Shown piece by piece: positions 19,361 to 34,184 of a stretch of 34,184 nt of DNA. The stretch is from Methylobrevis pamukkalensis. Its GTDB lineage: Bacteria; Pseudomonadota; Alphaproteobacteria; Rhizobiales; Pleomorphomonadaceae. Every line of letters starts with the position of its first letter. The first letter of the stretch is position 1. Under the pieces are notes generated by a model, which ran no database searches, was not told the origin of the DNA, and worked only from the letters and a program-made list of their open reading frames with translations. The position numbers and the translations under genes are program-made. The DNA lies in contig NZ_MCRJ01000031.1 in the NCBI RefSeq assembly GCF_001720135.1, positions 1-34,184 of the forward strand, written 5' to 3'.

Positions 19361-19843
19361 ATGAATGTGAAAGAGGTGATCGATGAGCTCGACGCCGAGC
19401 GCGAGAAGATCTGGCTGACCTGTCCGGACGAGGTGAAGGACATCGGTCAGGGCATCGTGCCGCGCGGCACCGGCTCGCGCGGCCAGTATTTCAGCACGCT
19501 CGTCTTCGCCGAGGGCGAGGCGCGCACGCTGGCCGACGAGATGCTCTGGGGCATCATCCAGGTCTGCGAGAAGCCCGACGCCGACCTCGGCACGCTGAAG
19601 CACGTGATCTCCGAGATCATCGGCTACAAGGCCGACTTCTTCGACTTCGTGGGCCTGCCGCATGCCGCGGCGATGATCCACAAATACGTCGCCGCCGCCC
19701 AGGAATGCGGCACGCTGGACGAGTTGAAGGCGCTGTCCTCGGCCTGCCTCACCTACGCCAACCGCGTGCACATGTGGGTCGACGCCGTTTTCCCCTGGGG
19801 CCTCGGCAACGCCTTCAAGCGCGTCGACCGCCGCTATCCCTGA
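19361..19843 (+). CDS. Cucumopine/mikimopine synthase C-terminal helical-bundle-like protein
   Basis: A 160-residue, probably cytoplasmic, all-helical protein. I associate it with the helical-bundle domain that forms the C-terminal half of the Agrobacterium opine enzymes cucumopine and mikimopine synthase, which condense histidine with 2-oxoglutarate. That match is from memory of the family and is not proven here. Visible features are an amphipathic first helix (VKEVIDELDAEREKIWLTC), a central ISEIIGYKADFFDFVGLPHA segment and a conserved-looking end ANRVHMWVDAVFPWGLGNAF with aromatic and His residues that could line an active site. ATG 19361 has GGAAAGGA 7 bases before it; an earlier in-frame start at 19262 would add a basic, non-domain tail. 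The DUF3830 gene follows after 27 bases, which supports a two-subunit enzyme. Confidence 0.6.
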   Translation: MNVKEVIDELDAEREKIWLTCPDEVKDIGQGIVPRGTGSRGQYFSTLVFAEGEARTLADEMLWGIIQVCEKPDADLGTLKHVISEIIGYKADFFDFVGLPHAAAMIHKYVAAAQECGTLDELKALSSACLTYANRVHMWVDAVFPWGLGNAFKRVDRRYP

Positions 19844-19870
19844 TCCATCGATTGCCAAGGAGTTCCGAAG

Positions 19871-20292
19871 ATGCGCGTTCGTCTCAAAGTGGACGGGGAA
19901 GAGGCCTGCCAGTTCGAGGTCTGGGAGGACAAGGTTCCGAACATCGCGGCGCTGTTCCGCGAGAAGCTGCCGGTGAAATCCACCCTGCAGCACGGCAAGC
20001 TGATCGGCGACATGGTGTTCTTCGTCACGCCCTTCATCGCGCCGTGGGAGAACATGTACCTGACGCAGGACGTCGGCCGCATGCGCCGCGAGGCCACCGG
20101 CCATTCCGCCGGCGCCGTGTGCTTCTACGGGCCGCGCCAGCAGCTCTGCGTCGTCTACGGCGACGACACGGCCGAGGAGCCGCTCAAGATCTCCTACATC
20201 GGCGAGATCGTGGAAGGTCATCTGAAGATGAAGCTCGTCGCGCCGAATGCTGGCTGCAGCAGGGCGCCATCGTCGAGATGGAACTGGCCTGA
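19871..20292 (+). CDS. DUF3830 family cyclophilin-like protein, one-base frameshift near 20249
   Basis: A small beta-barrel protein with a cyclophilin-like fold (DUF3830). It opens with the strand MRVRLKVDGEEACQFEVW, then the helix PNIAALFREKLP and the strand pairs GDMVFFVTPF, GAVCFYGPRQQLCVVYGD and LKISYIGEIV. The reading frame runs off after PNAG; restoring one base at about 20249 gives N-A-W-L-Q-Q-G-A-I-V-E-M-E-L-A and a stop at 20290-20292, for 140 residues. The N-terminal half of mikimopine/cucumopine synthases has this fold, so with the preceding gene this looks like a split version of that enzyme (inference). ATG 19871 has AAGGAG about 8 bases before it. A hairpin with a short T run follows. 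Confidence 0.7.
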
Positions 20293-20344: not shown

Positions 20345-20379
20345 ACGGGCCGTCCTGCCGGGCGGCCCGTCTGCGTTTT
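20345..20379 (+). terminator. Rho-independent terminator after the DUF3830 gene
   Basis: ACGGGCCG at 20345-20352 pairs perfectly with CGGCCCGT at 20363-20370, an 8-bp GC stem with a 10-base loop, followed by CTGCGTTTTC. It sits between the converging DUF3830 and glutamine synthetase-like genes and reads as a plus-strand terminator. Confidence 0.65.
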
Positions 20380-21725
20380 CAGAAGAACTTGAGGTAGCGC
20401 TTCGTCTCCCATTCGGAGACGTGGGCCATGTAGGACATCCACTCCTCGCGCTTGTAGGCGATCCAGGCATCGGCCATGCCGTCGCCCATCACCTGACGCG
20501 ACAGCGGATCGGCGGCAAAGGCGTCGATCGCCTCGCCGAGCGTGCGCGGCAATTCGCGGATGCCGCGGGCGGCCAGTTCCTCGGCGGTCACCTCGTACAT
20601 GTTGCCGGTGTTCGGCGCGCCGGGATCGAGATCCTCCGCAATGCCCTCGAGGCCCGCCGCCAGCACCATCGCCGCGCCGAGATAGGGGTTGCAGGAACTG
20701 TCCGCCGGGCGCAGTTCGATGCGGCCGCCGCCGAGCGGAATGCGCACGGCGTTGGTGCGGTTGTTGTTGCCGTAGCAGCAGAAGATCGGCGCCCAGGTGA
20801 AGCCGGACATGGAGCCCTGCTTGACGAGGCGCTTGTAGCTGTTGACCGTCGGCGCCACGACCGCGCAGATCGCCGGCAGGTGGCGGACGACGCCGGCGAC
20901 AAACTTGTAGCCGAGCTCGGACAGGCCGCAGCCGCGCGGATCGGCCTTGTCGGCAAAGGCGTTCACGCCAGTTCCTAGATCGGCGAGCGACATGTTGAAA
21001 TGCGCGCCGCTGCCGGTGCGGTCGGCATAGGGCTTGGGCATGAACGATGCGAACAGGCCGTGCTTCTCGACCATCTTGTTGGCCATCATCCGCAGGAAGA
21101 CGAAGCGGTCGGCGATGGTCACGGCGTCGGCATAGGCAAAGTCGATCTCGAACTGGCCGAGGCCGTCCTCCTGATCGAAGGAATAGACGTCCCAGCCGAG
21201 GCCGTTCATGGCGCCGACCAGTTCGCCGAGCCAGCCCATGTTGTCGAGCACGCTCTGCCCGTCGTAGCAGGGCTTCAGCAGCGGCCGTTCCGACACCGGC
21301 GCATGGCCGGGCGCCCGGTCGAGCACGTAGAATTCGGCCTCCATGCCGAGATTGAAGCGATAGCCGAGACCGGCGGCCTTCGCCGTCTGCCGCTTCAGGA
21401 TGTTGCGGCTGCAGGCCTCGAACGGCTTGCCGGAGAGATGCAGGTCGCTGGCGAACCAGGCGACCTTGTCGTTCCACGGCAGCACCGTGCAGGACGCCGG
21501 GTCAGGCCGGGCGGACACCTCCTCGTCGTGGACGCTCTGAGGCACGCCGTCGAGGGCGGCGCCGGTGAACAGCTCCGATCCGGCGAGCATGTGCTCCAGA
21601 TGCGGCAGCGGCACCATCTTGGCCTTGGAGACGCCGTGCATGTCGACGTAGCTCGCCATCAGATAGTCGACGCCGGCGTCGGCAAGCGTCTGGCGAAGGG
21701 GGCTGGTGGGGGCGGTCGCGTCCAT
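20379..21725 (-). CDS. glnT: Type III glutamine synthetase (GlnT/gamma-glutamyl-amide ligase type)
   Basis: A 448-residue member of the glutamine synthetase superfamily, group GlnT/GmaS, ATP-dependent ligases joining glutamate to ammonia or to an amine such as methylamine. The N-terminal beta-grasp domain (SYVDMHGVSKAKMVPLP) leads to the catalytic domain with the metal-site strand NLGMEAEFYVL, the Glu-rich DQEDGLGQFEIDFAYADA, the ammonia/metal segment ADRTGSGAHFNMSL, the NSYKRLVKQGSMSGF loop and the Arg/Glu site ELRPADSSCNPYLGAA. The end MSYMAHVSEWETKRYLKFF is typical of the type III group. It lacks the adenylylation Tyr loop of GlnA, so regulation is expected by transcription. Its start overlaps the creatininase stop (TGATG), so translation is coupled. 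In a catabolic island, gamma-glutamylation of a pathway amine seems likelier than bulk nitrogen assimilation. Confidence 0.82.
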   Translation of the reverse strand: MDATAPTSPLRQTLADAGVDYLMASYVDMHGVSKAKMVPLPHLEHMLAGSELFTGAALDGVPQSVHDEEVSARPDPASCTVLPWNDKVAWFASDLHLSGKPFEACSRNILKRQTAKAAGLGYRFNLGMEAEFYVLDRAPGHAPVSERPLLKPCYDGQSVLDNMGWLGELVGAMNGLGWDVYSFDQEDGLGQFEIDFAYADAVTIADRFVFLRMMANKMVEKHGLFASFMPKPYADRTGSGAHFNMSLADLGTGVNAFADKADPRGCGLSELGYKFVAGVVRHLPAICAVVAPTVNSYKRLVKQGSMSGFTWAPIFCCYGNNNRTNAVRIPLGGGRIELRPADSSCNPYLGAAMVLAAGLEGIAEDLDPGAPNTGNMYEVTAEELAARGIRELPRTLGEAIDAFAADPLSRQVMGDGMADAWIAYKREEWMSYMAHVSEWETKRYLKFF

Positions 21726-22555
21726 CAGGATTGGTCTCCGGGAGATGTGCAGGTGAAACTCGGGCGAGGCGGGGCAGGGGCAGGCGGCGGGGCATCCACC
21801 CAGTCTTCCAGCGGGGTGCGCTCACGCAGGGCGCCCTGCAGCTGGTCGGCAAGGCTGGCCACCGCGAGCGACAGGATCGCTTCGCCGAAGTCCGCCGAGC
21901 CGCGGCTCGGCAGGCCGACGACGCCGTGCCGGCTCTCGCGGTCGACCGTGTAGGAGAAGAAGCAGCAGGTCGCCCGGTTGGGCTCGTCGACCGCGCGGTC
22001 CATGTGCACGAGATCCGGCCGCAGATGCAGCATCAGCGAGGTCTCGGCGTCGTTGGCGTGCCAGTTGGTGCCGCCGTCGTATTCGTAACAGGCGCGCACG
22101 TCGGCGGAAATTTCCCACAGCGAGCGCAGGCCGATCCGCATGGCCGGCAGATCGGTGCGGATGTTCTCCAGCGCGCAGCGCAGCGGTGCCCAGTTGGTGA
22201 CGTGGCCGTTGAGGATCAGCAGGCGGGTGAAGCCGGAATGGCCGACCCATTCGGCAATCTCCAGCACCAGCTTCGACAGCGTCTCGGGCCGCAGCGAGAG
22301 GGTGCCCGGCCACTTGCGGGAATGGCCCGGCGAGCAGCCGTAGGGCAGGGCGGGCAGCACCGGGATGCCGGTGCGGGCGGAGACGCCGAGCGCCACCGCC
22401 TCGGCCGACATCGTGTCAACGCCGGTCGGCAGATGCGGTCCGTGCTGCTCCGTGGCGCCGATCGGCAGGATGCAGAGGTCGATGCCGCCGTCGCGCACGG
22501 CGGCGATCTCCTCGAAGGAGCGTTCCTCCCAGCGGACAGGTTTTCCACTCGTCAT
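21725..22555 (-). CDS. Creatininase family amidohydrolase
   Basis: A 276-residue metal-dependent amidohydrolase. Members open cyclic amides such as creatinine or act on related amide and cyclic ketone substrates. The family metal motifs are visible: LPIGATEQHGPHLPTGVDT near residues 30-48 (Glu36, His38, Asp47), NGHVTNW near 116-122 (His118) and HANDAETSLML (Glu). The usual NGHGGN is here NGHVTN, so it is probably not a standard creatininase. The start is ATG 22555, which has AGGAAAGG 8 bases before it; the earlier in-frame ATG at 22582 lacks one. It is coupled to glnT downstream. Together the two enzymes could open a cyclic amide and then glutamylate the freed amine (inference). Confidence 0.82.
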   Translation of the reverse strand: MTSGKPVRWEERSFEEIAAVRDGGIDLCILPIGATEQHGPHLPTGVDTMSAEAVALGVSARTGIPVLPALPYGCSPGHSRKWPGTLSLRPETLSKLVLEIAEWVGHSGFTRLLILNGHVTNWAPLRCALENIRTDLPAMRIGLRSLWEISADVRACYEYDGGTNWHANDAETSLMLHLRPDLVHMDRAVDEPNRATCCFFSYTVDRESRHGVVGLPSRGSADFGEAILSLAVASLADQLQGALRERTPLEDWVDAPPPAPAPPRPSFTCTSPGDQS

Positions 22556-22635
22556 GTGCCGCGCCTTTCCTGCCGCCCGCATGCCGCCGGGCCGGATGAC
22601 AGACCGGGTGACAGACGCGGCTCATGAAATTTCAT

Positions 22636-22761: not shown

Positions 22762-23564
22762 TCAGAGCAGCTTGGACAGGAACGCCCGCGTGCGCGGATG
22801 GCGCGGCTCGGAAAAGATCGTCGCCGGGGCGCTGGCCTCGACCACCGCGCCCTGATCCATGAAGGCGACCTTGTCGCCGACCTCGCGGGCAAAGCCCATC
22901 TCGTGGGTGACGACGATCATGGTCATGCCGTCACGGGCGAGATCCTTCATCACATCAAGCACTTCGCCGACGAGTTCCGGATCGAGCGCGCTGGTCGGCT
23001 CGTCGAACAGCATCAGCTTGGGCCGCATGGCCAGCGCCCGCGCGATCGCCACCCGCTGCTGCTGGCCGCCGGACAGTTGGCTCGGATAGGCATGGAGACG
23101 GTGGCCGAGGCCGACCCGGGAAAGCAGGGATTCCGCCCGTTCCGTCGCCTCCGACCGCGACTCCCGGCGCACGTGGATCGGGGCCTCCACCACATTCTCC
23201 AGCGCGGTCATGTGCGCGAAAAGATTGAACTTCTGGAACACCATGCCGATGTCGGCACGCTGCGCGGCCGCCTGTTTTTCCTTCAGCGGATGCAGCCGGT
23301 CGCCCTCGCGGCGGTAGCGACATGCTGTCCGTCGACCGTCAGCAGCCCGCCGTCGATCTGTTCCAGATTGTTGATGCAGCGCAGGAACGTGGACTTTCCC
23401 GACCCCGAGGGGCCGATCAGGCAGACCACCTCGCCGCGGTGCACGGTCAGGTCCACGCCCTTCAGCACCAGGCTGCCGTGAAAGCTCTTCTTCACCTGCC
23501 GGGCAAGGACCATCGGCGTGTCCGTCTGCCCGGCGCGGGTCGTCTCGATCTCGGTCATCGTCAT
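22762..23564 (-). CDS. Polar amino acid ABC transporter ATPase (GlnQ/HisP type), one-base frameshift near 23318
   Basis: The energising subunit of an uptake system. Walker [17 protein letters not shown] and the Q-loop segment [19 protein letters not shown] are in place, followed by the signature [17 protein letters not shown], Walker [17 protein letters not shown] and the switch His in [12 protein letters not shown]. The first quarter is in one frame and the rest in another; restoring one base near 23318 gives [17 protein letters not shown], the usual GlnQ-type insert, for 267 residues. ATG 23564 is chosen because the conserved domain starts shortly after it, though the ribosome-binding site is weak. 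It is divergent from the binding-protein and permease genes, an unusual split arrangement sharing one control region. Confidence 0.87.
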
Positions 23565-23778: not shown

Positions 23779-24705
23779 ATGTCTGCGAATGTATTCGTCC
23801 GGGTCTTCGTTGCGGCCGGTCTCGCCGTGACCACCCTCTGCTCGCTCGCCTCCGTCGCGCCGGCCGTTGCCGCCCCCGACATGCCCATCCCCGAACAGGC
23901 CGTCGTGCCGGAACTGCATGCGCTGTTGCCCGAGAAGATCCGCAGCGCCGGCGTGCTCAACCTTGCCACCGACGCCCACTATCCGCCGTGCCAGTGGTTC
24001 CTGGAGGATGGCAAGACCATGATCGGCTACGAGGTCGACATCTGGAACGCGCTGGCGCAGGTGCTCGGCGTCAAGCTCGAGGCGGTGTCGATCGACTTTG
24101 CCGGCCTGATCCCCGGGGTTGCCGGCGGCCGCTACGATCTCGCCATGGAGTGCATCACCGACCGCACCGACCGCGAGGAGCAGGTGACCTTCGTCAACCA
24201 CTCGCTCGACTACGGCAACGCCTTCTACTACCTCACCTCCACCGCGACGATCACCGCCGGCGACGCGCTGTCGCTCTGCGGCCACAAGACCGCCGGCCAG
24301 TCGGGCACGGACTTCGTCGACAAGCTGGAGGCCCTCGCCAAGTGGTGCGTGGACCAGGGCAAGGAGACGATCGAGGTCGGCCAGTACCCGACCGCCTCGG
24401 GCGTGCTGCTGGCGCTCTTCTCCGGCCGCATCGATTTCGCCCTCAGCGAGGCCTCGGCGGTCGAGGAGCTCAAGGCGAACAATCCGGTCGACGTCGGCAC
24501 CATCTCCAACCCGCTGGAAGTCCAGAACTACCTCGGCATCGTCACCGCCAAGGACAACGAGCCGCTGCAGCAGGCGCTGCTCGGTGCGCTGAAGGCGATC
24601 AAGGCCAACGGCACTTACGACATGATCTTCGAGAAGTGGAGCCTGCCGCATGCCGCGCTCGACGAGTTCGGCATCAACATGACCACGACCAAGCCGCGCG
24701 GCTGA
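23779..24705 (+). CDS. ABC transporter substrate-binding protein, family 3 (polar amino acid type)
   Basis: A secreted 308-residue solute receptor. A Sec signal peptide spans residues 1-31 with cleavage likely after APAVA. The mature protein has the family-3 pattern: GVLNLATDAHYPPCQWF, the GYEVDIWNALAQVLGVK segment, and DREEQVTFVNHSLDYG, whose Arg normally binds a ligand carboxylate. At the position where amino-acid receptors usually have Asp for the alpha-amino group (the VxDxPxA motif) this protein has Glu (FALSEASAVEEL), so the ligand may differ from a plain amino acid. Cys occurs at several mature positions (YPPCQ, MECI, SLCG, KWCV), allowing disulphides. ATG 23779 has AAGGA about 8 bases before it. 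It is followed by a stable hairpin and then the permease. Confidence 0.87.
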   Translation: MSANVFVRVFVAAGLAVTTLCSLASVAPAVAAPDMPIPEQAVVPELHALLPEKIRSAGVLNLATDAHYPPCQWFLEDGKTMIGYEVDIWNALAQVLGVKLEAVSIDFAGLIPGVAGGRYDLAMECITDRTDREEQVTFVNHSLDYGNAFYYLTSTATITAGDALSLCGHKTAGQSGTDFVDKLEALAKWCVDQGKETIEVGQYPTASGVLLALFSGRIDFALSEASAVEELKANNPVDVGTISNPLEVQNYLGIVTAKDNEPLQQALLGALKAIKANGTYDMIFEKWSLPHAALDEFGINMTTTKPRG

Positions 24706-24805: not shown

Positions 24806-25744
24806 ATGGATGCCAACTCTCCCGCCAGGGCCGGGCGCGATCCCGAAGAGACGGGCGACGACCTCGTCGTCGTCACGCCGAAGCACCCGCTGCGCTGGGT
24901 GATGGTGGCGCTGGTGATGGTGATCGCCGGCTTCGCGCTGTCGTCGGTCGCAACCAATCCGAATTTCCAGTGGCCGGTGGTCGGCCGCTACCTGTTCGAC
25001 CCGATCGTGCTGTCCGGCTTCCTGACGACCCTGTGGCTGACGGTGGTCACGATGATCATCGGCGTGGTGCTCGGCATCGTGCTGGCGGTGATGCGCCTGT
25101 CGTCGAGTCCGATCATCTCGGGCGCGGCCGGGGCCTATCTCTGGTTCTTCCGCGGCACGCCGATGCTGGTGCAACTGATCTTCTGGTACAATCTGGCCGC
25201 TCTCTATCCCCGCTACTGGCTCGGCCTTCCGCTCGTCGACCTGACGCTGTTCGAGGGCTCGTTCAACGACCTGATCACGCCCTACACCGCGGCGATCCTC
25301 GGCCTCGGCCTCAACGAGGGCGCCTACATGGCGGAGATCGTGCGGGCCGGCATCGATTCCGTCGATGGCGGGCAGAAGGACGCCGCCCGCGCGCTCGGCA
25401 TGCCGCGCCGGCAGGCGATGCGCCGGGTCATCCTGCCGCAGGCGATGCGCTTCATCGTGCCGCCGACCGGCAACCAGACCATCGGCATGCTGAAGGGCAC
25501 GTCGATCGTCTCGATCGTCGCGCTGTCGGACCTGCTCTACTCGGTGCAGACGATCTACTCGCGCACCTTCCAGACCATCCCGCTGCTGCTGGTCGCCTGT
25601 TTCTGGTACCTCGTCGCGACCACGCTGCTCTCGATCGTCCAGGCCCGGATCGAGCGCCATTTCGCGCGCGGCGATGCCGGCCGCGGCCCGGCCCGCGACG
25701 AGCCGCCCGCCGTGATCCGTGCCGAGACCCGCCCCGGCGGATGA
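24806..25744 (+). CDS. Polar amino acid ABC transporter permease (HisM/GlnP type)
   Basis: A 312-residue membrane permease. After a hydrophilic N-terminal tail of about 28 residues there is an extra helix (WVMVALVMVIAGFAL) and then the HEQRO-type core starting at SGFLTTLWLTVVTMIIGVVL, with LWFFRGTPMLVQLIFWY. The coupling EAA loop that contacts the ATPase is visible as ARALGMPRRQAMRRVILPQA, followed by RFIVPPTGNQTIGMLKGTS, typical of the family. Only one permease gene is present, so it probably works as a homodimer, with the ATPase at 22762-23564. The polar, Arg/Pro-rich C-terminal tail is about 30 residues. The Rieske gene follows after 56 bases. Confidence 0.9.
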   Translation: MDANSPARAGRDPEETGDDLVVVTPKHPLRWVMVALVMVIAGFALSSVATNPNFQWPVVGRYLFDPIVLSGFLTTLWLTVVTMIIGVVLGIVLAVMRLSSSPIISGAAGAYLWFFRGTPMLVQLIFWYNLAALYPRYWLGLPLVDLTLFEGSFNDLITPYTAAILGLGLNEGAYMAEIVRAGIDSVDGGQKDAARALGMPRRQAMRRVILPQAMRFIVPPTGNQTIGMLKGTSIVSIVALSDLLYSVQTIYSRTFQTIPLLLVACFWYLVATTLLSIVQARIERHFARGDAGRGPARDEPPAVIRAETRPGG

Positions 25745-25800
25745 CCCTTCCCGCGCGTCGCGCGACCCCGACACCCACCCTTTTCCGGAGGTCCCCACTG

Positions 25801-26982
25801 ATGGATACCAACGCGCATTCCGCCGCAAGACTGCCCGATGATCTCGACCGGCTGGTGGACGAGGTTCTTGCCGGCGGCGGCCAGTCGCTGGCGCAGGCCG
25901 AGACGCTGCCGCCCGCGGCCTACACCTCGCAGGCCTTCTTCGATCTGGAGGTGGAGAAGATCTTCCGGACCGACTGGCTCGCGGTCGGCCATATCGCGCA
26001 GGTGCCGGAGGTCGGCGACTATTTCACGCTCGACCTGCTGGGCGAACCGCTGGTGGTGGTGCGCGGCGAGGACCGCATCCGGGTGATGTCGCGGGTCTGC
26101 CTGCACCGCTGGGCGCCGGTGGTGTCGGGCAAGGGCAACACCAAGCTGTTCTCCTGCCCGTTCCACCGCTGGGGCTACGGCCTCGACGGCCAGCTCAGGG
26201 TCTCGCCCTACATGCAGGAGGCGGCCGACTTCAATCCGAAGACCTGCCGGCTGCCGGAGGTGCGGTCCGAGATCGTGCTTGGCACGATCTACATCAACCT
26301 GTCGGGGGACGCCGCTCCGCTGGCGCCGCGCCTGTCCGGCCTCGTCGCCGAGTTCGCCAAGATCCCGGTGGACGACCTGATCGTCGGCTACTCGACCGAA
26401 TTCCGCTGTCCGTTCAACTGGAAGATCGCGGTCGAGACCTTCATGGAGTGCTACCACCACATCGGCGCGCACGCGAAGACCCTGCAGCCGCACAGCCCCG
26501 GCGGCGAGAGCTGGGGCGAGGACATGACCGACCCGGAGCAGGGCTGGATCACCCTGCGCCACCCGCTCCGCGCCGACCTTCCGACCGAACACGTGCTGAA
26601 ATCCGGCCTGCCGATCTTCGATGGCTTCACGGACGCGGAGATGCGGGTCGGCAGCCTCTACCACGTGTTCCCGATGAACCTGATCGGCACCAGCGTGGAT
26701 GCCGTGCGCTGGACGACGATCCTGCCGATCTCGCCCGACGAGACCTGGTGGATCCGCCATCACCTCGTCCGCAAGTCGGCCCGCGACATGCCGGGCTTCG
26801 ACGCGCTGATGGAGAAGACCAAGGCCAACGGCGCGGTGATCGCGGGCGAGGATGTCGAGGTCAACACGCTGCAGCAGATGGGCGCAAAGTCCCGCTACGC
26901 GCGGCCCGGTCGGCTCAGCCATCTGGAAAAGCCGGTCTGGCAGCTCGCCGACTATGTGCGGGCCAAGCTCGCCGACGCATGA
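25801..26982 (+). CDS. Rieske-type aromatic ring-hydroxylating oxygenase alpha subunit
   Basis: A 393-residue non-heme iron oxygenase. The Rieske 2Fe-2S site is C-x-H at Cys100/His102 (VCLHRW) and C-x2-H at Cys119/His122 (SCPFHRWGYG). The mononuclear iron site lies after FNWKIAVETFMECYHHIGAH, with His219 and His224 in the standard H-x4-H spacing. Three residues before His219 is Glu216, where naphthalene dioxygenase has its bridging Asp205. Such enzymes hydroxylate rings or cleave methyl or C-N groups (for example on quaternary amines), using NADH-derived electrons via a reductase. No reductase or ferredoxin gene is in the window, so a partner must come from elsewhere. ATG 25801 has GGAGG 10 bases before it. 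The frame is open far upstream, but that is a shadow of the permease gene. Confidence 0.9.
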   Translation: MDTNAHSAARLPDDLDRLVDEVLAGGGQSLAQAETLPPAAYTSQAFFDLEVEKIFRTDWLAVGHIAQVPEVGDYFTLDLLGEPLVVVRGEDRIRVMSRVCLHRWAPVVSGKGNTKLFSCPFHRWGYGLDGQLRVSPYMQEAADFNPKTCRLPEVRSEIVLGTIYINLSGDAAPLAPRLSGLVAEFAKIPVDDLIVGYSTEFRCPFNWKIAVETFMECYHHIGAHAKTLQPHSPGGESWGEDMTDPEQGWITLRHPLRADLPTEHVLKSGLPIFDGFTDAEMRVGSLYHVFPMNLIGTSVDAVRWTTILPISPDETWWIRHHLVRKSARDMPGFDALMEKTKANGAVIAGEDVEVNTLQQMGAKSRYARPGRLSHLEKPVWQLADYVRAKLADA

Positions 26983-27028: not shown

Positions 27029-28015
27029 ATGAACTACGTGAAGCTCGGCCGGACCGGCCTCGACGTCTCGCGCCTCTGCCTCGGCTGCATGACCTATGCG
27101 GCAGGCCCCGGCGGCAGCCACAAGTGGCTGCTCAACGAGGCGGCGGGACGGCCCTTCATCCGCCATGCCCTCGAACAGGGCATCAACTTCTTCGACACCG
27201 CCAACGCCTATTCCGGCGGGGCGAGCGAGGAGGTGCTCGGCCGGGCGCTGAAGGACTTTGCCCGGCGCGACGAGGTGGTGATCCTCACCAAGGTCTACAA
27301 CCGGATGCGGCCGGGGCCGAACGGCGCCGGCCTGTCGCGCAAGGCGATCATGACCGAGATCGACGCCAGCCTGAAGCGGCTCGGCACCGACCATGTCGAC
27401 GTCTACATGATCCACCGCTGGGACTACGAGACGCCGATCGAGGAGACGCTGGAGGCGCTGCACGACGTGGTGAAGGCCGGCAAGGCCCGCTATCTCGGCG
27501 CCTCGTCGATGTTCGCCTGGCAACTGTGCAAGGCGCTCTACACCGCCGATCTGCACGGCTGGACCCGCTTCACCGTCATGCAGAACCACCTGAACCTCCT
27601 CTACCGCGAGGAGGAGCGCGAGATGATGGGGCTGTGCAAGGCCGAGGGCGTCGCTGTCGTGCCGTGGAGCCCGCTGGCGCGCGGCCGGCTGACCCGCCCG
27701 TGGAACGCCGAAGTGGACAGCGCCCGCGCCGGCAACGACGCCTACACCACCCACCTCTACGCCAAGACCGAGGAGGCCGACAAACGCGTCGTCGACCGGC
27801 TGATCGAAGTATCGGCCGCGCGCGGCGCCCCGCCGGCCGAGGTCGCACTCGCCTGGCTGCTGCAGAAGTCGCCGGTGGCCGCCCCGGTGATCGGCGCGAC
27901 CAAGCTTGCCCAGATCGACCAGGCCGTCGCCGCGCTGGACGTGACTCTCTCGCCCGCCGAGATCGCCGCGCTGGAGGAGCCCTACCAGCCGCATGCGGTG
28001 ATCGGCTTCTCGTGA
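27029..28015 (+). CDS. Aldo/keto reductase
   Basis: A 328-residue (beta/alpha)8 NADPH-dependent oxidoreductase of the AKR superfamily, YajO/Tas-like branch. The full catalytic tetrad is visible: Asp56 and Tyr61 in FFDTANAYSGG, Lys88 in VILTKVY and His129 in YMIHRWD. The cofactor segment near the end (VIGATKLAQIDQAV) is the standard NADP-binding loop. It would reduce an aldehyde or ketone formed in the pathway, or work in reverse as a dehydrogenase. ATG 27029 has AGGAA 9 bases before it and lies 46 bases after the Rieske gene; the flavoprotein gene starts 7 bases after its stop, so all are in one operon. Confidence 0.92.
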   Translation: MNYVKLGRTGLDVSRLCLGCMTYAAGPGGSHKWLLNEAAGRPFIRHALEQGINFFDTANAYSGGASEEVLGRALKDFARRDEVVILTKVYNRMRPGPNGAGLSRKAIMTEIDASLKRLGTDHVDVYMIHRWDYETPIEETLEALHDVVKAGKARYLGASSMFAWQLCKALYTADLHGWTRFTVMQNHLNLLYREEEREMMGLCKAEGVAVVPWSPLARGRLTRPWNAEVDSARAGNDAYTTHLYAKTEEADKRVVDRLIEVSAARGAPPAEVALAWLLQKSPVAAPVIGATKLAQIDQAVAALDVTLSPAEIAALEEPYQPHAVIGFS

Positions 28016-28022
28016 GGTACGG

Positions 28023-29699
28023 ATGACAGCCGTCGCTGTGAGCGTGGAGGAAACCTGCGACGTGCTGGTGGTCGGCTCCGGCGGCGCGGCACTGGTGGCA
28101 GCGCTCACCGCCGCGGCCGGCGGGCTCGACGTGATCGTCGCGGAAAAGACCGAGGTGCTCGGTGGCACGACCGCGATTTCGGGTGCCGGGATCTGGGTGC
28201 CGGCCAATCGACACGCGCGGGAGGCCGGGATCGACGACAGCCCGGAGCAGGCGCTCGCCTATATCCGCGCCGCCGCGCCGGAGGGCTGGGCCGAGGAAGA
28301 GGATCCGCTGTGGCAGCGCTTCGTGGCGGCCGCGCCGGCGATGCTCGATTTCGTGGAGGCCGCGACCCCGCTTTGCTTTGCCCTCAGCGACGACGCCGAT
28401 CCGCTGCTGCACCTTGAGGGCGCCAGGCGGACAGGCCGCATGGTCTCGCCGCGTCCGCTCCGGCGCCGGGTGGCCGGCGTGCTGGCGCGGCGCCTGCGCC
28501 GGCCGCCGCTGCCGCATCTCTTCACCTATCAGGAGGTGCGCGCCGCCGACGTGTTCCACCATCCCGTCCGCGCGGTGCTGGCGCATGCCCACCGCCTCGT
28601 CTGGCGGCTTGTCACCGGCAGACGCGGCAAGGGCACGGCGCTCATCGCCGGGCTCGTCGCCGGATGCCTTGCGAACGGCTGCCGCTTCAGGCTGGGCGCG
28701 AAGGCCACCGGTCTCCTGACCGATGCGGCCGGCGATGTGACGGGCGCCCTGGTCGAGACCGGCGACGCGCGGACGACGATCCGCGCGCGGCGCGGTGTCG
28801 TGCTCGCCTCCGGCGGCTTCGAATGGGACGCGGAACGGCTTGCCCGGCATTTCCCCGGGCCGGTCGATCTCGTCGGCAGCCCGCATGCCAACACGGGCGA
28901 CGCCCACCGCATGGCCGAGGCGGTCGGCGCGCGGCTCGCGCGGATGGACCAGGCCAACATCGCCCCGGCGATCCCCGCTGTCTACGACGGCCGGCCGCAC
29001 GGCTTTGCCACCTTCCATCACCGCGAGCCGAACGCGATCCTCGTCGGCCCCGACGGCCGGCGGTTTGCCAACGAATATCTGTTCAATCTCGGCGAGGTGC
29101 TGGACGCGCGCGACCCGGCGTCGGGACTGCCCCGCCACCTGCCGGCCTTCCTCGTCACCGACAGCCGCTTCTTCCGGCGCTCGCCGGTGATCGCCCGCTT
29201 TCTGCGCCGCGCGCCCGGCTGGGTGGTGACGGCGGCGACGATCGAGGCTCTTGCTGCCCGGATCAGTGTTCCGGTCGAGGGGCTGGCGGACACCGTCGCC
29301 CGCTTCAACGCCTTCGCGGCGACCGGGCAGGACCTTGAGTTCCAGCGAGAGCAGGACCTGCTCGCGCCCGGCGGCACCGACCCCGGCCGGATGGACCGGA
29401 TCTGCCGGCCGCCCTATGCGGCGATGCCGTTCAACCGCTCGTTTCTCGGCACCAAGGGCGGCCCGCGCACCGATGCGGACGGGGCCGTGCTGCGCGCCGA
29501 TGGCCGCCGCATCGGCGGGCTCTACGCCGCCGGCCTCGCGATGGCCAATCCCTTCGGCACCCGCGCGGTCGGCTCCGGCACCACAATCGGCCCGAACATG
29601 ACCTGGGGCTACGTCTGCGGCCTGAGCCTCGTCGCCGGCAAGCCGAGGCCGCCGCTCCCCGATCCGCCATGCGACAACAGCAAGGACACGCCGTCATGA
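28023..29699 (+). CDS. FAD-dependent oxidoreductase (fumarate reductase/3-ketosteroid dehydrogenase-like)
   Basis: A 558-residue flavoprotein of the FAD_binding_2 family. The dinucleotide fold is at residues about 13-36 (VLVVGSGGAALVAALTAAAGG) with a Glu (AEKTEVLGGTTAISGAG) for the ribose and the GGTT segment near the isoalloxazine. The C-terminal FAD segment is GGLYAAGLAMANPFGTRAVG, followed by GSGTTIGPNMTWGYVCG. Members introduce C=C double bonds into ketones or reduce unsaturated acids. An Arg-rich insertion at about residues 140-160 (RPLRRRVAGVLARRLRR) is unlike typical 3-ketosteroid dehydrogenases, so I do not name a substrate. It ends overlapping the SDR start by four bases (ATGA at 29696), which suggests coupled translation. 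Confidence 0.86.
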   Translation: MTAVAVSVEETCDVLVVGSGGAALVAALTAAAGGLDVIVAEKTEVLGGTTAISGAGIWVPANRHAREAGIDDSPEQALAYIRAAAPEGWAEEEDPLWQRFVAAAPAMLDFVEAATPLCFALSDDADPLLHLEGARRTGRMVSPRPLRRRVAGVLARRLRRPPLPHLFTYQEVRAADVFHHPVRAVLAHAHRLVWRLVTGRRGKGTALIAGLVAGCLANGCRFRLGAKATGLLTDAAGDVTGALVETGDARTTIRARRGVVLASGGFEWDAERLARHFPGPVDLVGSPHANTGDAHRMAEAVGARLARMDQANIAPAIPAVYDGRPHGFATFHHREPNAILVGPDGRRFANEYLFNLGEVLDARDPASGLPRHLPAFLVTDSRFFRRSPVIARFLRRAPGWVVTAATIEALAARISVPVEGLADTVARFNAFAATGQDLEFQREQDLLAPGGTDPGRMDRICRPPYAAMPFNRSFLGTKGGPRTDADGAVLRADGRRIGGLYAAGLAMANPFGTRAVGSGTTIGPNMTWGYVCGLSLVAGKPRPPLPDPPCDNSKDTPS

Positions 29700-30481
29700 C
29701 CGCGACGACACCCCCTCCCGCCGGCCCGCTCCACGGCCAGGTTGCCCTCGTTACCGGGGGCGCGAAGGGCATCGGCCGCGCGATCGTCCGGGAACTCGCG
29801 GGGAAGGGCGCCTCGATCATCGTCGGCGCGGGCCGCGATCTTGCCGGCGCCGAGGCGGTTGCCGAAGATATCACGGCCTCGGGCGGACGCGCGCGCGCGT
29901 TCGCCTGCGATCTCGGCGACCGGGCCTCGGTCGACGGCATGGTGGACGCGGCCGTCGCCGCCTTCGGCCGGCTCGACATCGTGGTCGGCAACGCCGGGGC
30001 GAGCGCGCGCGGCCTCCTGACCGATCTTTCGGCCGACGACTGGGACACGGTGTTCGCGATCAATACCCGCGGCTTCTTCTTCCTCGCGACGGCCGCAGCC
30101 CGGCACATGATCCCGCAGGGCTCCGGCCTCGTCGTCTCCATCGCCGGCGCGTCGGCGCACCGCTGCTATCCGGGTGCCGGCGGCTATGGTCCCTCGAAGG
30201 CGGCGGTGGTCAGCCTGACGCAGCAGATGGCGGTGGAGTGGGCGCGCCACGGCCTGCGCGTCAACGGCGTCAGCCCGGGACCGATTCGCGATCCGGACAG
30301 CGGTTGGCAGCAGCGCGAGCCGGCGCTTGCCGAGGAGGTGCTGAAGATCCCGCTGAAACGGGCCGGACGGCCGGAGGATGTCGCCCGCGCGGTGGGATAC
30401 CTCGCCGAGGCGGACTATGTCACCGGCCAGATGCTGGTGGTCGACGGCGGCTCGACCACGACATGGTATATTTCCGTGTGA
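29696..30481 (+). CDS. SDR-family oxidoreductase
   Basis: A 261-residue classical short-chain dehydrogenase. Motifs: TGGAKGIG (cofactor loop, about residues 19-26), GNAGAS in place of NNAG, catalytic Ser in SIAGASAHR and Tyr-x3-Lys in GYGPSKAAV. The C-terminal GQMLVVDGGSTT is standard. The start ATG overlaps the flavoprotein stop; an earlier start at 29669 would only add a tail inside that gene. The GxNAG change (G for the first N) is a mild variant also found in active members. It probably acts on an alcohol or ketone intermediate made by the Rieske/flavoprotein steps, an inference from context. Confidence 0.9.
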   Translation: MTATTPPPAGPLHGQVALVTGGAKGIGRAIVRELAGKGASIIVGAGRDLAGAEAVAEDITASGGRARAFACDLGDRASVDGMVDAAVAAFGRLDIVVGNAGASARGLLTDLSADDWDTVFAINTRGFFFLATAAARHMIPQGSGLVVSIAGASAHRCYPGAGGYGPSKAAVVSLTQQMAVEWARHGLRVNGVSPGPIRDPDSGWQQREPALAEEVLKIPLKRAGRPEDVARAVGYLAEADYVTGQMLVVDGGSTTTWYISV

Positions 30482-31388: not shown

Positions 31389-34115
31389 TCAGGCGACCAC
31401 GAAGTCGGCGCTGGTCATCGCCAGCCCGGTCGAAATGGTGGCGAACTGCACTGCGCCGCCGGCCGCGTTGCCGTTGCTGTCGTAGATCAGCGCGCCCGTC
31501 ACGTCGTTGTAGATGATCCGGTCGTTGGCATCCCCGGCCGCCGCTCCGATGACGAAGCGGCCTGCGGCGAGGGCACCGAGGCCGATCGCCGAGAAGATCG
31601 CGTCGTCGAGTTCGATCGTGTCGGCCGCAACATTGAAGTCCGAGATCGTGTCGATGTTGTTGATGCCGAGCGCGGACGAGAAGCGGAACGTGTCGTTGCC
31701 GCCGTTGCCTTCCAGGATATCAGCCGCCCCGCCTCCGTCGAGGACGTTGACACCGGCGTTGCCGACGAGGGTGTTGGACCTGCCATTGCCGGTGCCGTCC
31801 TTGGCGCCGCCCCCGGTCAGGACCAGGGTTTCGACGAAGCGTCCGACCAGCGAGTAGCTCACCGACGAATTGATGGTGTCATTGCCCTCGCCGTCGGCCT
31901 CGATCACCACGTCACCGATGTTGTCGACGATATAGGTGTCGTTGCCGTCCTTGCCTTCCATCGTGTCGGCCGCCACACCGCCATCGAGGACGTTGTTGCC
32001 GCTGTTTCCGATCAGGGTGTTGGCCTTGCCGTTGCCGGTGGCGTTCTTGTTGCCGGTGCCGGTCAGGATCAGGGTTTCGACGAAGCGTCCGACCAGCGAG
32101 TAGCTCACCGACGAGTTGATGGTGTCGTCACCCTCGCCATCGAGCTCGATGACGTTGTCGCCGATGTTGTCGACGATATAGGTGTCGTTGCCGCCCTTGC
32201 CGGCCATCGTGTCGGCGGCGACCCCGCCATCGATGATGTTGTTGCCGATGCCGCCGTTGATCGTGTTGGCCTTGCCGTTGCCGGTGGCATTGATCTGCCC
32301 GGCCGCGGTGATGTTCAGCGTCTCGACGAAGCGGCCGACCAGCGAGTAGGTCACGGTGGTGTTGATCGTGTCGTTGCCCTCACCGTCGGCCTCCACCACG
32401 TTGTCACCGGCGTGGTTGACGAAATAGGTGTCGTCGCCGTCGTGGCCGATCATCGTGTCGGGGCCGCCCTTGCCGTCGAGCGTGTTCGTGCCGTTGTTGC
32501 CTTCCAGGGTCTGCCCCTTGCCGTTGCCCGTCAGGTTGATGGCGGAGGTTCCGGCGATGTTCGTCACCGCCAGCACCTCGATGTCCTGATCGGCGGCCAG
32601 TGTGACGCTGCGGGTCGTGAAGATCCGGTCGTTGGTGCCTTCGCCAGCGAGTTCGACGACCACGTCGTTGACGTTGTCGATGAAATAGTCGTCGTCGCCG
32701 GTGCCGCCGGTCATGGTATCGACGTTGGCGCCGCCATCGAGGATATCGTTGCCGGACCCGCCGATGAGTTCGTCGTTGCCGGTGCGGCCGAGAAGCGTGT
32801 CGTCGTCATCGCCGCCATTGAGCAGATCGTTGCCGCCCTGGCCGTCCAGCTCGTCGTCGCCGCCGTTGCCAAGCATCACATCGCGCAGGCCGTCGCCGGT
32901 GAGGCTTTCCCCGGTGTCGTCGCTGGTCGTGGTCCGGACGATCCGGTCGATCTGGATGCTGACATGGGTGTCGTCCGGATCGACGTTTCCGTCTTCGATC
33001 GCGGAATTGGTATCAGTCCAAGCGGTGACGATGCTGCCGTTGCCGAATACGGCCACCGACGATTCGCGCTGATCCAGCCCTTGATTTTCGACCAAGCCGA
33101 GACTGAAGTGAACCTGCAGCGTGAGCGGATCGACCAGCGCGCTACGGATGTCCGTACCTGCCACATTATCCGTGAATGTGATGTAGATCAGGCCATTGCG
33201 CAGCTGGGTCAGCGATATGTCAGTGTCAGCGACGCTGTCCAGATCGAAGCGCGTGATCCCGCGCACACTGCCGTCGGCATTGAAGACGGCAATGGAGGAG
33301 GCCCCGCCCCCCGGGCCGTTGTCCTCGTAGACGACTGCAAAGCCGCCGTCGGCGAGGGCTACGATTTCCGGATGACGGTTCTGCGTGCCGACGTCGTCGA
33401 ACACCGTCGGTCCGAGGATAACCGTCCCGGTCGGCGAGACGATCTCGATGCCCATGCTGAAGGTGTCGGTGCCGTCGGTCGTCTCGACTTCATAGGCGAT
33501 GGCGATGTTGCCGTTGGTCAGCACCGTGACGGCGGGATCCTGTTCATCGGAGCCGGAATTGCCATTGAGCGCACGGCTCAGCACGAACGCGCCATTGGCA
33601 TCGTAGATGATGAGATCGGCATCCTGGTCGTCCGCACTCAGATTGTCCTGCTTGACCAGCGCCCAGCCGCCGCCGGGCAGGGCCCAGACATCGGCGACGA
33701 AGTCGTTGCCATCGGTAGTGGGAAGCTTGGTGTCGGCAACGATCGTGCTGCCATCGGTCGGATCGATGATCGCATGGTGGATGCCGGGGTCGTCGGTGTC
33801 CGTCCAGGTGACCAGGATCCCGCCGGTGGACAACTGCGTCATCGAGATGTCGGCCGTGATCGCGTTGCCGACGAACGTGTCGGGGAAGAGCGCACCGCCC
33901 GCTCGGATCGTTCCATCCTGGTTATAGATGTCGAGGATGATCGAATAGTCGTTTCCAGTGTTCGTATCGAGCCATTCGTAGGCGACGGCAAAGCCGCCAT
34001 CCTCGAGCGCGACAACAACCGGGTCGAATTCATCCGATTGCCGAGAAAAGCTCGTGGAATAGTCGGAACTGAACTCGGGAACAACGTTCTCGATGCTGAA
34101 GGATATGGACGCCAT
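31389..34115 (-). CDS. Secreted RTX calcium-binding protein with predicted propeller-like N-terminal domain
   Basis: A 908-residue, Asp/Gly/Asn-rich protein without a Sec signal peptide, as expected for type I secretion. Residues about 30-370 hold seven copies of a VxxLxxGGFAVxYxD-type repeat (near residues 33, 90, 142, 195, 250, 299 and 352, spacing 49-58), which suggests a seven-bladed beta-propeller. Seven tandem RTX nonapeptides (GGxGxDxLx type) cover residues 416-478 and should bind calcium outside the cell. Three 82-residue repeats follow at 547-792, each with a DTMxGxxGDDTY motif, and a C-terminal secretion domain after about 800 (NDTFRFSSALG, then DTISDFNVAADTIELDDAIF). The start is ATG 34115, with AAAGGGA 6 bases before it; an upstream in-frame ATG at 34169 lacks support. 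No enzyme motif is visible; adhesin or biofilm matrix protein is possible. No transporter genes are nearby. Confidence 0.85.
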   Translation of the reverse strand: MASISFSIENVVPEFSSDYSTSFSRQSDEFDPVVVALEDGGFAVAYEWLDTNTGNDYSIILDIYNQDGTIRAGGALFPDTFVGNAITADISMTQLSTGGILVTWTDTDDPGIHHAIIDPTDGSTIVADTKLPTTDGNDFVADVWALPGGGWALVKQDNLSADDQDADLIIYDANGAFVLSRALNGNSGSDEQDPAVTVLTNGNIAIAYEVETTDGTDTFSMGIEIVSPTGTVILGPTVFDDVGTQNRHPEIVALADGGFAVVYEDNGPGGGASSIAVFNADGSVRGITRFDLDSVADTDISLTQLRNGLIYITFTDNVAGTDIRSALVDPLTLQVHFSLGLVENQGLDQRESSVAVFGNGSIVTAWTDTNSAIEDGNVDPDDTHVSIQIDRIVRTTTSDDTGESLTGDGLRDVMLGNGGDDELDGQGGNDLLNGGDDDDTLLGRTGNDELIGGSGNDILDGGANVDTMTGGTGDDDYFIDNVNDVVVELAGEGTNDRIFTTRSVTLAADQDIEVLAVTNIAGTSAINLTGNGKGQTLEGNNGTNTLDGKGGPDTMIGHDGDDTYFVNHAGDNVVEADGEGNDTINTTVTYSLVGRFVETLNITAAGQINATGNGKANTINGGIGNNIIDGGVAADTMAGKGGNDTYIVDNIGDNVIELDGEGDDTINSSVSYSLVGRFVETLILTGTGNKNATGNGKANTLIGNSGNNVLDGGVAADTMEGKDGNDTYIVDNIGDVVIEADGEGNDTINSSVSYSLVGRFVETLVLTGGGAKDGTGNGRSNTLVGNAGVNVLDGGGAADILEGNGGNDTFRFSSALGINNIDTISDFNVAADTIELDDAIFSAIGLGALAAGRFVIGAAAGDANDRIIYNDVTGALIYDSNGNAAGGAVQFATISTGLAMTSADFVVA
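31740..32477. repeat. Three tandem 246-bp repeats inside the RTX gene
   Basis: The segment is three direct units of exactly 246 bases (82 codons). The same string TCGACGAAGC or TCGACGAAG begins at 31831, 32077 and 32323. The first two units by plus-strand order are nearly identical at DNA level around the codons for SVSYSLVGRFVETL, and the third has diverged. Unequal recombination could change copy number here. Confidence 0.8.
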
Positions 34116-34184
34116 GACTGGTCCCTTTCTGAAAAGATCCAGGTCGGAAAGGGCGCTGGGCCACGACATGTCGGACGGCAGCGA

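Follow-up and report, generated by a model that had tools for sequence, protein, structure and literature searches.

All characterised members of the cyclophilin-like Pictet-Spenglerase/cucumopine synthase family run, to our knowledge, in the synthetic direction. KslB, the Pictet-Spenglerase of the kitasetaline pathway (PDB 9ns6, 9nsc, 9nst and 9k0a; 2025 structures), converts L-Trp and 2-oxoglutarate to a beta-carboline and carries its helical domain first and its cyclophilin-like domain second. McbB, from the marinacarboline pathway (PDB 3x27), also takes tryptophan as substrate and has the opposite domain order. Both are single chains. The locus described here encodes the same two halves as separate proteins, in the order found in KslB. 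It lies in a stretch of 34,184 nt (hereafter the window; positions 1-34,184, forward strand, of contig NZ_MCRJ01000031.1) from Methylobrevis pamukkalensis, whose assembly (GCF_001720135.1) consists of 348 contigs and is 86% complete. The pair and its neighbours are as follows.

19361..19843, + strand: helical subunit, a free-standing Cucumopine_C protein of 160 aa (PF18631, phmmer, fold match)
19871..20292, + strand: cyclophilin-like subunit of about 140 aa, with a 1-base frameshift (alignment of 47 sequences, fold match)
20379..21725, - strand: GlnT-like type III glutamate-ammonia ligase, convergent with the pair; pathway membership uncertain (TIGR03105, 3e-164, over the NCBIfam cut-off)
21725..22582, - strand: creatininase-family amidohydrolase; pathway membership uncertain (PF02633, 2e-63)
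22762..23500, - strand: ATPase of an amino-acid-type ABC importer, with a frameshift near 23320 (profile match)
23782..24705, + strand: family 3 solute-binding protein of the importer (PF00497, 8e-27)
24806..25744, + strand: importer permease (PF00528)
25786..26982, + strand: Rieske oxygenase alpha subunit (PF00355, PF00848)
27032..28015, + strand: aldo/keto reductase (PF00248, 1.6e-72)
28023..29699, + strand: FAD_binding_2 dehydrogenase, ketosteroid-dehydrogenase-like (profile match)
29669..30481, + strand: short-chain dehydrogenase, SDR (profile match)

A preliminary description of this DNA had reported two adjacent genes 27 bases apart, and this is the layout found. The helical gene starts with the ATG at 19361 and its stop codon ends at 19843; the gap spans 19844-19870, and the second ATG, at 19871, is preceded by a GGAG that makes a good ribosome-binding site. 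With a stop codon and 27 bases between the two genes, the locus is a split variant, not a canonical one-chain synthase. The cyclophilin-like reading frame is intact to about 20250 (the break lies at about 20240-20250), and a 1-base shift is needed to reach the TGA at 20290-20292. The final 16 or so residues of the protein (WLQQGAIVEMELA and a few preceding ones) are thus encoded in the other frame; the alignment shows this C-terminus to be unbroken in orthologues. Single-base frameshifts also interrupt the ABC ATPase gene of the window and, elsewhere in the assembly, hutH and hutU (G000:C3:57508-58871; G000:C93:907-2534), which indicates residual sequencing errors. The break in the cyclophilin-like gene is therefore likely to be an assembly or sequencing error.

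The helical protein had been taken for the helical half of an opine synthase, and the profile match leaves little room for another assignment: residues 3-140 match PF18631 (Cucumopine_C) at 8e-49, with 166 bits against a cut-off of 27. It is the sole Cucumopine_C protein in the assembly. Its nearest relative of known structure by sequence is McbB (residues 181-334 of 3x27; phmmer, 7e-23), the entries with the helical domain first (9ns6, 9k0a and 9uwa) being more distant matches. In the alignment of 47 sequences the cyclophilin-like protein lines up with the corresponding parts of KslB, McbB and the relatives from opine plasmids. The name DUF3830 originally given to it had to be dropped: it scores 18.7 bits against PF12903, under the Pfam cut-off of 26, and the true DUF3830 protein of the assembly (contig C126) is a different one. 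Its score against Cyclophil_like2 (22.4 bits) falls just under the cut-off of 22.7. The pair is 20-33% identical to characterised members of the family, with KslB at about 20%.

For structural comparison, the two proteins were modelled as one chain by reading through the stop codon. The model (pLDDT 79, pTM 0.54) matches KslB across both parts, and in Foldseek KslB chains fill the first 32 places. The helical part superimposes on the McbB helical domain with a Z score of 19 (rmsd 2.1 Å over 147 residues), and the cyclophilin-like part on TM1367 with a Z score of 10. Superposed as a whole chain, the model deviates from KslB by 6-10 Å and does not reproduce its domain arrangement; together with the pTM value, this indicates that the domains are right and that their mutual arrangement is not predicted. 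A linked co-fold of an intact Microbacterium pair (three paired rows in its alignment) gave a pTM of 0.51 and an rmsd to KslB of about 18 Å. The two co-folds thus yield good single domains and no reliable domain arrangement, with whole-chain rmsd values of 6-19 Å overall.

Relatives were gathered from plasmids, from a pattern search of 84,980 genome species and from whole-genome samples. The family is rare, being found in 4 of 385 genomes of the class sample, 1 of 398 of the phylum sample (the window's own), 6 of 400 in a family centred on Amnibacterium and 9 of 395 in its class, and 6 of 395 in a family centred on Mangrovicella. Genome survey for conserved adjacency and natural fusions, as had been proposed, gave a uniform answer: all 45 helical domains in the fetched loci have a cyclophilin-like partner on the same strand, fused or within about 50 bases, and none stands alone. 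In 24 cases the two are split (13 helical-first, 11 cyclophilin-first) and in 21 they are fused (4 helical-first, 17 cyclophilin-first). This is strong evidence that the two domains work together. Conserved adjacency and the profile E-value of 8e-49 also rule out chance or artefact as the origin of the pair.

The absence of a firm interface in the co-folds, along with the frameshift, could be taken to mean that these are two separate proteins sharing an operon and not subunits of one enzyme, or that the cyclophilin-like gene is decaying here. We consider either very improbable. The partnership holds for every one of the 45 helical domains, in either order and whether split or fused; tandem duplications in three of the orthologous loci (L018-L020, see below) copied both genes; and the frameshift has its like in several other genes of the assembly.

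Two features first thought to set the locus apart need qualifying. The helical-first order holds in the window and is no novelty, since KslB and fusions from pRi2659, Paraburkholderia and elsewhere share it. Likewise, the pair does consist of two family halves, as proposed, but as a split form it has counterparts in the databases: split pairs are present on pRi1724, in Sodalis and on Sinorhizobium plasmids, where they are named only DUF3830 or hypothetical protein. The family, the helical-first order (in KslB) and the relatives in cucumopine-catabolic regions are all on record already. No paper describing a two-subunit form, or the reverse reaction as a physiological one, was found in the literature searched, whose reach ended short of Hooykaas (2022) on the cucumopine plasmid pAtAg67, a study that may treat cus homologues in catabolism.

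Some loci in the survey are unusual in themselves. One genome (G056) carries three forms inside 13 kb: one split pair and two fusions, of which one is cyclophilin-first and the other helical-first (L014 9055-9995 and L015 2288-5279, on G056:C31), a region that also contains oxoprolinase and hut genes. A very divergent split pair (L016 10166-11040; L017 646-1518) adjoins a gene that, read from its N-terminus, appears to encode a class II glutamine amidotransferase-like protein; L016 also has a glutamine synthetase that shares 29% identity with the ligase of the window. This pair lacks the catalytic glutamate discussed below and was not counted as having the function of the window pair; possibly the two-domain unit serves another function there.

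The active site of the window pair retains the glutamate that aligns with E97 of McbB (E118 of the tagged 3x27 chain, the numbering offset being 21), which we take to be the catalytic residue. It lies in the motif TAEEPLK, and its position is shared with KslB. An equivalent glutamate is found in every cyclophilin part aligned (47 sequences) except the two from L016 and L017. In contrast, H87 of McbB is replaced in the window pair and is not conserved outside the McbB type. The alignment further reveals insertions around the active site that are particular to the helical-first split clade.

The genomic context of this clade is informative. Nine other helical-first split loci (L018, L019, L020, L048, L049, L050, L070, L071 and L072), from actinobacteria and one Rhizobiaceae-type genome, encode orthologues that are 46-67% (helical part) and 41-71% (cyclophilin part) identical to those of the window. 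Histidine-utilisation (hut) genes are present in 8 of the 9, and a solute-binding protein and permease like those of the window in 6 of the 9. The window's solute-binding protein is 45-48% identical to those beside the orthologous pairs in L018-L020, L070 and L072, its permease 55-58% identical to the permeases beside orthologous pairs, and its ATPase, in two pieces, 54-59% identical to that of the Amnibacterium locus (L020). There the gene order is SBP-permease-ATPase-SDR-SDR-[hel-cyp]x2-hutH-hutU-M20 amidohydrolase-hutF. Regulators in the orthologous loci are of the IclR, RpiR or GntR type. None of the 12 loci with McbB-type fusions (L013, L024-L029, L066-L069 and L077) has hut genes; the difference (8/9 versus 0/12) has a one-sided hypergeometric P of 4e-5 at face value, several of the loci being close relatives. 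Linkage to hutH and oxoprolinase extends to cyclophilin-first split pairs and to fused opine-plasmid types (Sodalis, Paraburkholderia, G056). Inside the window there is no hut gene; hutH and hutU lie elsewhere in the same assembly.

Three Microbacteriaceae genomes (L018-L020) carry two helical-cyclophilin pairs in tandem. The copies differ in the cyclophilin part, which is 44-51% identical to that of the window in one and 56-59% in the other, and may act on two different substrates or on a pair of stereoisomers. Only C-4 distinguishes cucumopine from mikimopine (PMC9103826).

The presence together of importer, pair and hut genes suggests a catabolic scheme of uptake and cleavage. We think it probable that the pair acts in catabolism as a two-subunit enzyme of the family, cleaving an imported histidine-derived tetrahydropyridine to histidine and a carbonyl compound by a retro-Pictet-Spengler reaction. 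The amino-acid-type ABC importer would bring in an opine-like tetrahydro-imidazopyridine. The predicted complex would form its pocket jointly from both subunits, the cyclophilin-like one providing the glutamate as acid/base. Ring opening would run the Pictet-Spengler reaction in reverse: the imidazole carbon would be reprotonated, the C-C bond cleaved to give an iminium ion, and this ion hydrolysed to L-histidine and an oxo acid or aldehyde. The histidine released would enter the hut pathway and end as glutamate, while the neighbouring oxidoreductases and dehydrogenases would probably process the remaining oxo compound. The preliminary description had left open whether the ring is made or broken; the neighbourhoods favour breaking, with histidine as the predicted product. 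Against the catabolic reading stand the lack of a hut gene in the window, the convergent orientation of the pair and its neighbours, the replacement of H87, the missing interface in the linked co-folds, the frameshift in the cyclophilin-like gene, the synthetic direction of the characterised members known to us and, for cucumopine as substrate, the lack of an oxoprolinase gene nearby.

The nearest solved structures, KslB and McbB, both belong to synthetic enzymes. One may therefore envisage that the two subunits make up a biosynthetic Pictet-Spenglerase, which would build a histidine or tryptophan alkaloid from the amino acid and an oxo acid; the adjoining oxidoreductases could tailor the product, and importer and hut genes would merely supply or drain histidine. 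This is unlikely given that the orthologues adjoin amino-acid-type importers and complete hut operons with their IclR, RpiR or GntR-type regulators, whereas the McbB-type fusions, which are probably biosynthetic, have no hut context, and given that relatives occur in regions of the cucumopine-catabolic type on pRi2659 and pTiAg57. There is a small but real chance that the enzyme is catabolic and two-subunit and acts on a histidine-containing compound in a different way (by hydrolysis, isomerisation or racemisation, for example), leaving the ring uncut. The low identity to characterised members, the replaced H87 and the clade's own active-site insertions would fit such an enzyme; conservation of the catalytic glutamate in all clades but one speaks for ring cleavage instead, as do the two domains and the hut context that the clades of the cucumopine-catabolic regions have in common.

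Returning to the window and to the cleavage scheme, the transporter and oxidation genes noted earlier beside the pair are indeed an ABC importer, a Rieske oxygenase, an aldo/keto reductase, an FAD dehydrogenase and an SDR. The pair itself is transcribed toward the ligase gene and lies outside the importer operon. The FAD dehydrogenase and the SDR have counterparts, each 53% identical, in L075, a locus where hutH, a 2-hydroxyacid dehydrogenase, a GntR-type regulator and a further importer accompany a cyclophilin-first split pair; these oxidoreductases therefore travel with a histidine-linked pair elsewhere too. Plasmid relatives of the FAD dehydrogenase, among those examined, lie in unrelated clusters. 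The Rieske oxygenase probably performs a further processing step. Neither it nor the aldo/keto reductase, the ligase or the creatininase is linked to pairs in other loci, except for the 29% identical ligase relative in L016. The ligase may, next to the creatininase, gamma-glutamylate an amine in the same pathway. No RNA families or tRNAs were found in the window, at whose edge lies a reading frame of 926 residues with RTX calcium-binding repeats (31389-34169, - strand).

Profile searches found no oxoprolinase gene in the window. On cucumopine/mikimopine plasmids the relatives are accompanied by oxoprolinase, a lactam-opening enzyme, which is missing from both the window and the closest orthologous loci; the substrate is thus probably not cucumopine or mikimopine, nor any other opine of 2-oxoglutarate.

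A broader proposal, whose chances we put a little short of even, is that actinobacteria and proteobacteria without T-DNA possess a widespread but rare two-subunit retro-Pictet-Spengler enzyme that frees histidine from opine-like alkaloids, and that the agrobacterial opine synthases arose from it or alongside it. If so, the missing ring-opening step of histidine-opine catabolism would have a name, and genetically workable soil bacteria would be at hand to study it. Enzymes of the KslB/McbB/opine-synthase family would then work both ways, as in the known precedent of mannopine, whose synthetic and catabolic enzymes are homologous. Histidine-derived ring compounds would be a food source far outside crown galls, and the pairs would offer two-component catalysts for building or cutting such rings.

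Compared with the known systems, the pair shares with KslB the order of its halves and the best structural match over both parts; it differs in being split, in its predicted catabolic role and in its sequence. McbB provides the nearest helical domain, by sequence and by structure, along with the equivalent of Glu97; hut genes are absent from the surroundings of its actinobacterial relatives. As the preliminary description had it, the halves are encoded separately and in a catabolic setting, off any T-DNA. The cucumopine/mikimopine catabolic regions of agrobacteria differ in having oxoprolinase A/B and hut genes nearby, neither of which is in the window. The cucumopine plasmid pRi2659 has two fused relatives, one per order, among oxoprolinase and a full complement of hut genes (hutC, hutH and hutF-I-G-U-D), in 45 kb that contain no annotated rol gene; an amino-acid importer lies nearby, as in the window, and the differences from the window pair are the fusion, the plasmid location and the oxoprolinase. 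The octopine/cucumopine plasmid pTiAg57 has a region of the same kind; its annotation divides the cyclophilin-first fusion gene into two pieces (L082 11541-12504), so this gene may be broken there. The split pair of pRi1724 lies beside a fused gene that is probably mis (mikimopine synthase). It belongs to another clade, with the cyclophilin half first, 28% identity in the helical part and linkage to oxoprolinase genes; like the window pair, it has the two domains on separate chains and adjoins an ABC importer.
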